A stretch of DNA of 64,000 bases from Caulobacter sp. NIBR1757 (GTDB lineage Bacteria; Pseudomonadota; Alphaproteobacteria; Caulobacterales; Caulobacteraceae): contig NZ_CP115463.1 of NCBI RefSeq assembly GCF_027912495.1, forward strand, positions 4,352,501-4,416,500, read 5' to 3'. Position 1 is the first letter of the stretch; every line of letters starts with the position of its first letter. The notes below the pieces were generated by a model, which had not been told where the DNA came from, searched no databases, and saw only the letters and a program-made list of their open reading frames with translations. Both the position numbers and the translations under genes were made by a program. Below, piece by piece: positions 37,170 to 39,236 of the stretch.

Positions 37170-37808
37170 ATGACCCAACACCTGAACCGCCGCGACACCC
37201 TCGCCGGCCTGATCGCCCTTTCCGCCACCGGCCTCGCCGGGGCTGCCTTCGCCGCGCCCCTGTCGGCCGACGACAAGGCGCTGGTCGACAAGGCCACCGC
37301 CTATCTGCAGGGCCTCGGCTCCGCCAAGGGCCGCTTCATCCAGACCGATCCACGCGGGACCCAGACGCAGGGCTCCTTCTACCTGCAGCGCCCCGGCAAG
37401 GCCCGCTTCGCCTACGACGCCCCGGCCAGCAAGCTGCTGGTCAGCGACGGCCGCTTCGTCTCCGAGGCCGACACCCGGCTGAAGACGGTCAACCGCTATC
37501 CGCTCGGCCAGACACCGCTGGCCCTGTTCCTGGCCCAGGACGTGCGGCTCGACAAAGGCGTGGTGATCACCAAGGTCAGCCGGCTCGACGGCGGCTTCTC
37601 CCTGACCATGGCCGACGGCCGCAAGCAGACCCGCGGAACCCTGACCATGAACTTCAGCGACAGTCCGATCGGGCTGATCGGCTGGGTGGTCAGCACCGTA
37701 CAGGGCGCGACCCGGGTGCGGCTGACCACCCTGGAGCGGGTCGGCGGCCTCGACGCCAAGCTGTTCGCCACGCCCTTCCCGCCGGCGAAGAAGACCGGGC
37801 GGCCCTGA
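37170..37808 (+). CDS. lolA: LolA, outer-membrane lipoprotein chaperone
   Basis: LolA carries lipoproteins through the periplasm from LolCDE. The 212-residue protein has a signal peptide ending GAAFA, GRFIQTDPRGTQTQGSFYLQRPGKARFAYDAP (the LolA beta-sheet signature), LLVSDGRFVS and LTTLERVGGLDAKLF. It has no LolB-type lipobox. The signal peptide contains NRRDTLAGL, which looks like a twin-arginine motif, unusual for LolA. It follows ftsK by 70 nt, the common alphaproteobacterial arrangement. Confidence 0.92.
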   Translation: MTQHLNRRDTLAGLIALSATGLAGAAFAAPLSADDKALVDKATAYLQGLGSAKGRFIQTDPRGTQTQGSFYLQRPGKARFAYDAPASKLLVSDGRFVSEADTRLKTVNRYPLGQTPLALFLAQDVRLDKGVVITKVSRLDGGFSLTMADGRKQTRGTLTMNFSDSPIGLIGWVVSTVQGATRVRLTTLERVGGLDAKLFATPFPPAKKTGRP

Positions 37809-37859: not shown

Positions 37860-37888
37860 TTGACGTTTCCGGACTGAAGTTGTTCTAA
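37860..37888 (+). promoter_or_regulatory. sigma-70-type promoter for a candidate sRNA
   Basis: TTGACG (37860-37865) and TTCTAA (37883-37888) are separated by exactly 17 nt. The -35 is a strong match to the vegetative consensus. No protein-coding frame follows; a terminator lies about 125 nt downstream. Confidence 0.5.
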
Positions 37889-37894
37889 TGCAAC

Positions 37895-38019
37895 ACATGG
37901 CGGTTGGCGCGTCCGACCTCGCGCCGCCGCGGACCGTGCCGGAAACCTATCCCCTCCCGGCGGCGGCATGAGAGACAACTTTTCCGCCCGATGCCGCATG
38001 GCATCGGGCGTTTTTCTTT
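37895..38019 (+). ncRNA. candidate small regulatory RNA with C-rich loop
   Basis: A promoter at 37860-37888 and a Rho-independent terminator at 37986-38019 bracket about 125 nt without an ORF. The predicted transcript folds into a first hairpin (GGCGCG-TCCGACCT-CGCGCC). A second stem (GCCG...CGGC) exposes CCTATCCCCTCC, and the terminator stem follows. A C-rich loop complementary to Shine-Dalgarno sequences is typical of alphaproteobacterial trans-acting sRNAs. I cannot assign it to a named family. It lies between lolA (+) and a lipoprotein gene (-). The 5' end is estimated from promoter spacing. Confidence 0.5.
37986..38019 (+). terminator. Rho-independent terminator
   Basis: A perfect 10-bp stem GCCCGATGCC/GGCATCGGGC with loop GCAT is followed by GTTTTTCTTT. 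The T-run is only on the plus-strand side, so it terminates rightward transcription, either the candidate sRNA or read-through from lolA. Confidence 0.85.
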
Positions 38020-38025
38020 GAGGGA

Positions 38026-38370
38026 TCAGAAGGTGAGCGGCGGCAAACCCGCGCGTTCACGGGCCAGGTGGATGTAGGCGACGTATCGCTCGGCGTTCTG
38101 TGTGGTCGGATAGCCGTTCGGCAGCTTGCCGCGCAGAGACCCGATCCGGGCGCCCCAGTGCTCCGGCCAGGTCTGGCTCCCGAGCTTCATCGGCGGACGC
38201 CCGGCGCGTTCGGCGGCGACCGCCTCATCAACGCCGGCGACCCAGATGGCGAACTGCCGATCCGTATCCCGGATGGAGCCGTGCTCGTCCTCCAGCCGCG
38301 CGACGGTGTGGCAGCCGCCCAGCCCGGCCAGGCAAAAAGCCAAAATCAGACCCTTCGCGCCTTTGATCAT
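38026..38370 (-). CDS. small lipoprotein of unknown function
   Basis: The 114-residue protein has a lipoprotein signal peptide (MIKGAKGLILAFCLAGLGGC, lipobox LGGC with Cys20). The mature part of about 95 residues contains DTDRQFAIWVAGVDEAVAAERAGRPPM and a C-terminal RYVAYIHLARERAGLPPL. No known domain was recognised. ATG 38370 is chosen over an upstream in-frame start because it begins the signal peptide directly. It is divergent from xthA. Confidence 0.7.
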   Translation of the reverse strand: MIKGAKGLILAFCLAGLGGCHTVARLEDEHGSIRDTDRQFAIWVAGVDEAVAAERAGRPPMKLGSQTWPEHWGARIGSLRGKLPNGYPTTQNAERYVAYIHLARERAGLPPLTF

Positions 38371-38429
38371 CGCCGTCTCCCGCGGACGAGCATGGCGCCG
38401 ACGGCGGCTCACCGCTACCTAGTCGTTCC

Positions 38430-39236
38430 ATGCGCCTTCGACTCGCCACCTGGAACATCAACTCCGTCCGTCCGCGCGGCGACCTGATCGGCCGCATGGT
38501 CGAGGAGATCGCTCCCGACGTCATCGCCCTGCAGGAGATCAAGTGCCAGGAGCACGAGTTCCCGCGCGAGATGTTCGAGGCGCTCGGCTACCGTCACTTC
38601 CGCATCCATGGCCAGAAGGGCTGGCACGGGGTGGCCATTGTCTCGCGCCTGCCGCTGGAGGACTCCCCGCCGCTCGACGTCTGCAAGAACGGCCACGCCC
38701 GCTGTGTCGGGACGATGGTCGGCGGCGTCGAGATCCAGAACTTCTACATCCCGGCCGGCGGCGACATCCCCGACCGTGAGCTGAACCCCAAATTCGACCA
38801 CAAGCTCGACTTCTTCGAGAAGCTGACCGCCGAGTTCGGCAAGCGCGACCCGCGCAATCCCCTGATCGTCACCGGCGACCTCAACGTCGCCCACGGCGAG
38901 AACGACGTCTGGAACCACAAATACATGTCCAAGGTGGTCAGCCACACGCCGGTCGAGGTGGGGGCCATGGAGGGCCTGATCGCCTCGGGCCGGTTCATCG
39001 ACCTGCCGCGCGAGGTGGTGCCGCCGTCGGAGAAGCTGGCCAGCTGGTGGAGCTACCGCGCCGCCGACTTCCGCGCCTCCAACCGTGGGCTGCGCCTCGA
39101 CCACATCCTGATCAGCCCGGGCCTGCGCGACGCCGCCTTCCACACCGGCAAGGCGATCAGCAAGGTTCATGAAGATGTGCGCGGCTGGGACAAGCCGAGC
39201 GACCACGCGCCGGTGACGGCTGATTTCATGATCTGA
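38430..39236 (+). CDS. xthA: exodeoxyribonuclease III
   Basis: This AP endonuclease and 3'-5' exonuclease of base-excision repair has 268 residues with the endonuclease/exonuclease/phosphatase motifs: ATWNINSVR, LQEIKCQ (metal Glu), VTGDLNVAH (Asp/Asn), RLDHILIS and SDHAPV (catalytic Asp-His). Length and motif spacing are normal for XthA. It is followed by an inverted-repeat element and a convergent regulator gene. Confidence 0.95.
   Translation: MRLRLATWNINSVRPRGDLIGRMVEEIAPDVIALQEIKCQEHEFPREMFEALGYRHFRIHGQKGWHGVAIVSRLPLEDSPPLDVCKNGHARCVGTMVGGVEIQNFYIPAGGDIPDRELNPKFDHKLDFFEKLTAEFGKRDPRNPLIVTGDLNVAHGENDVWNHKYMSKVVSHTPVEVGAMEGLIASGRFIDLPREVVPPSEKLASWWSYRAADFRASNRGLRLDHILISPGLRDAAFHTGKAISKVHEDVRGWDKPSDHAPVTADFMI

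Follow-up and report, generated by a model that had tools for sequence, protein, structure and literature searches.

Locus and Gene Neighborhood

The window, by which we mean the whole 64,000-nucleotide stretch of Caulobacter sp. NIBR1757 DNA analyzed here, contains a genuine small-RNA gene that is functional by homology and corresponds to the previously described RusT (Table 1). In C. crescentus, RusT (CCNA_R0199) is an sRNA of 118 nt that depends on Hfq and whose gene lies between lolA and xth (Vogt et al. 2024 mBio, PMC11005374); its orthologs hold the same position in other Caulobacter (PMC11005374). The copy in the window lies on the same strand between the same two genes, with one extra gene before xth. 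Among 180 family loci, the 5′ neighbor is lolA in 177 and the 3′ neighbor is xth in 172. These loci combine two sets that share genomes, some of them being counted twice, and most of the exceptions are contig ends. An earlier note on this DNA had placed the element between lolA and a lipoprotein gene. Both genes are there, but the lipoprotein-like gene is no normal neighbor: it stands at this place in 1 of the 180 loci and is thus peculiar to NIBR1757. A Pfam search with this gene (38026–38412) returned no match.

Table 1. Features of the rusT locus in the window
Feature	Coordinates	Strand	Remarks
lolA, conserved 5′ neighbor	37170..37808	+	PF03548, E 1.6e-25
rusT promoter, −35 element TTGACG	37860..37865	+	TTGAC kept by most of the 128 family loci aligned
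Dyad GTTGTTCTAATGCAAC (GTK-N10-MAC) over the −10 element	37879..37894	+	candidate repressor operator, possibly for NtrX (putative regulator)
−10 element TCTAAT, 18-nt spacer	37884..37889	+	last T invariant in 128 loci
rusT ortholog, predicted transcript of ~118–124 nt	37895..38018	+	5′ end placed by comparison with the homologous C. crescentus RNA
Stem-loop 1	37900..37930	+	variable letters, structure kept
Stem-loop 2	37934..37966	+	stem CCGUGCCGG/CCGGC-GCGG, nearly invariant
Seed loop AAACCUAUCCCCUC in stem-loop 2	37943..37956	+	ATCCCCTCCCGG invariant in 34/34 aligned sequences
GAGACAACUUUU, predicted counterpart of the RusT Hfq-protected region nt 73–84	37972..37983	+	register from C. vibrioides; footprint PMC11005374
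Rho-independent terminator	37985..38018	+	stem 37985–38010 and U-tract
Lipoprotein-like gene, lipobox LAGLGGC	38026..38412	−	between rusT and xth
xth (exodeoxyribonuclease III type), conserved 3′ neighbor	38430..39236	+	PF03372, E 1.2e-26

Structure of the Predicted RNA

Two internal hairpins and a textbook terminator had been described from the window alone, and both are borne out by folding and by comparison with relatives. The predicted transcript folds with −60.9 kcal/mol, against −48.6 ± 3.7 kcal/mol for shuffled sequences (z = −3.3). In the aligned copies, 97.6% of the cells pair over the whole structure, versus 34–52% when it is slid. The terminator stem comprises 11 pairs, 9 of them G–C, and is followed by TTTTTCTTT. 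Across 34 relatives its pairing is kept, with changes on both sides in 9 of the 11 pairs. Different clades build stem-loop 1 from different letters; in the relatives this hairpin has a mean z of −2.2, with 95% of the values below −1. Its columns do not line up between clades, which keeps it out of the RNAalifold consensus, and it was examined one sequence at a time instead. Checking the stems in relatives, as the earlier note had proposed, gave a consistent answer for stem 1 and the terminator: the letters change and the pairing stays.

The middle of the RNA behaves differently. None of the 34 aligned copies departs from CCGT-CCGG, ATCCCCTCCCGG or GCGGCATGAGAGA, and across Caulobacter and Phenylobacterium hardly a letter changes in the loop, the stem and GCGGCAUGAGAGA. 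Stem-loop 2 does present the C-rich sequence CCUAUCCCCUCC that had been described as an exposed loop. Conservation of hairpin 1 and the terminator as structure, and of the middle as sequence, gives the picture of a base-pairing sRNA. Past the seed hairpin, the GCGGCGGCATGAGAGA region (37961–37974) is as invariant as the seed itself, beyond what the stem or the Hfq site would appear to need.

Leaderless starts are common in Caulobacter, and an ATG at 37897 lies beside the predicted 5′ end. From this codon a frame of 24 amino acids (MAVGASDLAPPRTVPETYPLPAAA) is open to a TGA at 37977 and kept in the nearest relatives, so that the earlier description of a unit with no reading frame is not literally correct. 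The transcript could accordingly be taken for a short mRNA that carries a leaderless 24-codon gene. Yet single-base indels shift other clades into other frames, and therefore the frame does not look selected as coding. The peptide is unconserved; what is conserved instead is the nucleotide loop and the paired structure, and RusT itself works as a base-pairing RNA (PMC11005374). We consider the mRNA reading very unlikely and dropped a small-ORF interpretation of the stretch; in substance, the unit still seems to be non-coding.

Promoter and Candidate Operator

The earlier note proposed a promoter of the form TTGACG-17-TTCTAA. Its −35 part stands, given the conservation of TTGAC among relatives, but the −10 element fits better when it is read one base later, as TCTAAT with an 18-nt spacer; in the alignment, relatives have GATAAT, AATAAT or ATTAAT at this position. 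A strict promoter scan of the stretch lists no promoter here because TTCTAA lacks the A and the T that the scan demands. Since both elements are conserved in relatives, the rusT promoter is very likely real.

This promoter also bears on whether the element is an independent gene. Throughout the genomes compared, it sits a short distance behind lolA, as would be expected of a lolA 3′ UTR with its terminator, or else of a leader belonging to a downstream gene. We find either reading hardly credible: the element has its own conserved −35 and −10 sequences and its own dyad, its terminator comes ahead of xth or of the opposing lipoprotein-like gene, and RusT of C. crescentus is a 118-nt transcript from its own regulated promoter (PMC11005374). 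The earlier proposal of a complete small transcription unit thus holds for 37895–38018, which is promoter-driven, non-coding and terminator-ended, measures about 122 nt, and recurs beyond chance (68 of 75 same-genus genomes match).

The −10 element is covered by a dyad of the form GTK-N10-MAC. It was found in 128 of the 128 loci with sufficient upstream sequence, compared with 3.4% of shuffled upstream stretches. RusT expression is constitutive in ntrX mutants (PMC11005374), and a repressor site over the −10 element is consistent with this published behavior. A match to the dyad, GTTGAATTTTTGGCAC, also lies upstream of ntrY; by our estimate, chance alone would yield one such match within 400 bases in roughly one case out of ten. 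The NtrX motif reported for Brucella and Sinorhizobium, CAAN2-5TTG, differs from GTK-N10-MAC. We propose the dyad as a candidate NtrX operator.

Identification as RusT

It is almost certain, in our judgment, that 37895–38018 is the ortholog of C. crescentus RusT and that it makes an Hfq-bound repressor of about 120 nt under NtrX control. The two share the lolA/xth position, the length, the order of the stem-loops and the terminator, in which the predicted transcript of the window ends. Seed loop and Hfq region are near-identical, sites matching the loop at OmpW and TonB-receptor genes are common to both, and both genomes encode hfq and ntrYX. In contrast, stem 1 and the terminator of the NIBR1757 copy are written in other letters, its 5′ half is a few nucleotides longer, and the additional lipoprotein-like gene separates rusT from xth.

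The published seed of RusT comprises loop nucleotides 45–57 with C53 (PMC11005374). When the copy of C. vibrioides DSM 9893 is numbered in the 118-nt register, nucleotides 45–57 fall on the C-rich loop, with C53 in its CCCC, and nucleotides 73–84, the published Hfq footprint, correspond to GAGACTAGACTT. The second stem-loop of the window copy likewise holds the conserved seed, the second C of CCCC (37952) being the counterpart of C53. A covariance model built from 34 diverse copies scores 104.7 bits over 37895–38018; the window copy was itself among these 34.

In C. crescentus, the transcript, its binding by Hfq, its control through NtrX and the repression of its targets have been demonstrated, and iron starvation or an excess of zinc induces RusT there (PMC11005374). 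We infer that the same workings hold in NIBR1757. The anti-Shine-Dalgarno-like C-rich loop and the trans-acting mode suggested in the earlier note match what the C. crescentus ortholog was shown to be (PMC11005374); the note had the kind of object right but missed its identity as RusT.

That the element belongs to another known sRNA (Rfam ar7, suhB/MmgR or anti-hemB, or GsrN, CcnA or CrfA) has practically no probability left, since the weak Rfam matches (anti-hemB 21 bits, suhB 15.3, ar7 14.8) fall well short of the respective gathering cut-offs (49.5, 41 and 60), CcnA, which likewise has a CCCC loop, maps to the replication origin, and GsrN and CrfA are loci distinct from RusT (PMC11005374). 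The Rfam search of the stretch brought no family near its cut-off, membership in ar7, suhB and anti-hemB included. CcnA had been our first suspicion, from the C-rich loop and the nearness to the chromosome end, and was dropped on account of its position in the origin. In C. crescentus its CCCC loop also pairs with GGGG near start codons, but CcnA is 182 nt long, linked to CtrA and encoded at another locus, in the replication origin (PMC8959179). RusT shares with RyhB-type iron-sparing sRNAs the induction by iron starvation and an Hfq-mediated action on mRNAs; unlike these, it is controlled by NtrX, a Fur box was not found, and it mainly lowers outer-membrane transporters (PMC11005374).

Predicted Target Sites

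In C. crescentus, the loop of RusT mediates the repression of TonB-dependent receptors, OmpW and further targets, two of which were also examined with compensatory point mutations (PMC11005374). We looked for the corresponding sites in 650 genes called in about 0.8 Mb (about 40 stretches of 20 kb), 33 of which encode TonB-dependent receptors; the gene starts are our own calls. GGGGATA, the complement of UAUCCCC in the loop, is the top-ranked 7-mer in the start regions of the 33 receptor genes. It occurs in 5 of these, versus 2 of the 617 others (Fisher p 4.9e-6); with our gene-start calls, 28 of the 33 receptor start regions lack it. The two non-receptor genes encode OmpW, a RusT target validated in C. 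crescentus (PMC11005374), and a TolC-like outer-membrane protein. Duplex energies point in the same direction with a modest effect: the AUC is 0.69, compared with 0.60 when the loop is shuffled, and 1 of 150 shuffles did equally well.

Of the Caulobacter ompW loci, 48 were readable, and 46 of these have GGGGATA a few bases 5′ of the start codon; the exceptions are L254 and L262, and the flanks differ widely. Of the 46 sites, 42 were flagged by script and four (L248, L252, L255 and L272) were read by eye, the script having placed the start too far downstream. This conservation could in part stem from a role as ribosome-binding site; yet the motif is rare before other genes.

The gene for the TolC-like protein (G000:C1:2011419-2012900) carries GGGGATAG just 5′ of its start. 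This protein is a predicted RusT target that is absent from the published C. crescentus list.

Proposed Mode of Action

The NIBR1757 genome encodes hfq, ntrY and ntrX in the same order as C. crescentus. In the mechanism that we propose, disturbed iron homeostasis would lift the repression by NtrX at the rusT promoter, and the derepressed promoter would give rise to a stable transcript about 120 nt long. Hfq would attach to the single-stranded stretch 5′ of the terminator and to the U-tail. Through its C-rich loop (CUAUCCCC), stem-loop 2 could then pair with GGGGAUA(G) just upstream of start codons in mRNAs that encode proteins of the outer membrane (TonB-dependent receptors, OmpW). We infer that repression proceeds by blocked ribosome binding, with the consequence that less outer-membrane protein would be made and the outer membrane remodeled.

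What the present analysis contributes to this picture is conservation of RusT, its synteny, its structure and the match of target sites on both sides. A regulator characterized in one species is thereby confirmed independently, by comparative evidence from the sRNA side and the target side. Besides this evidence, the candidate operator and a wider distribution are additions to what was known of RusT. Seed, candidate operator and alignment could seed an Rfam family, none of the existing ones reaching its cut-off here.

Distribution in Relatives

The published RusT alignment covers Caulobacter only (PMC11005374). By DNA search (BLAST), the element is found in the 68 same-genus genomes mentioned above with E ≤ 0.01, nearly all of them below 1e-6. 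A search of the GTDB genome set with the core pattern gave 113 contigs. Judged by their titles, practically all come from Caulobacter, Phenylobacterium or another member of Caulobacteraceae, and a few have vaguer or odd MAG labels. The covariance model matches 342 of 390 family genomes, with E-values that are rough. A search of a plasmid collection for the element gave no match.

Matches of the model across the class, with E-values from 1e-4 to 1e-8, were not accepted as homologs because the model leans on the GC-rich terminator and its E-values are rough. Beyond the family, the only candidates that we kept were two genomes in which the loop recurs exactly behind lolA. These belong to another alphaproteobacterial family and have GCCGGCCTATCCCCTCCCGGC and a terminator behind lolA (L184 1501–1615 and L185 609–724); they are possible distant RusT elements. 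In a further genus of Caulobacteraceae, weaker copies (L182, L183) occupy the interval from lolA to xth. This distribution suggests that the RusT family is older than Caulobacter.

With slightly less than even confidence, we propose a broader view: that of an old RusT family extending past Caulobacter, almost unchanged in Phenylobacterium, diverged across most remaining genera of Caulobacteraceae, and represented in one genus of a different family by the same loop behind lolA. The dyad would be an NtrX repressor site that also stands before ntrY, and the sRNA, the operator and the ompW site would have been kept as one circuit.

Some Caulobacter genomes (G002, G074 and others) have three to five matches each to the RusT model. 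The weaker of these matches may mark further C-rich sRNAs, such as the Sis family, or terminators alone.
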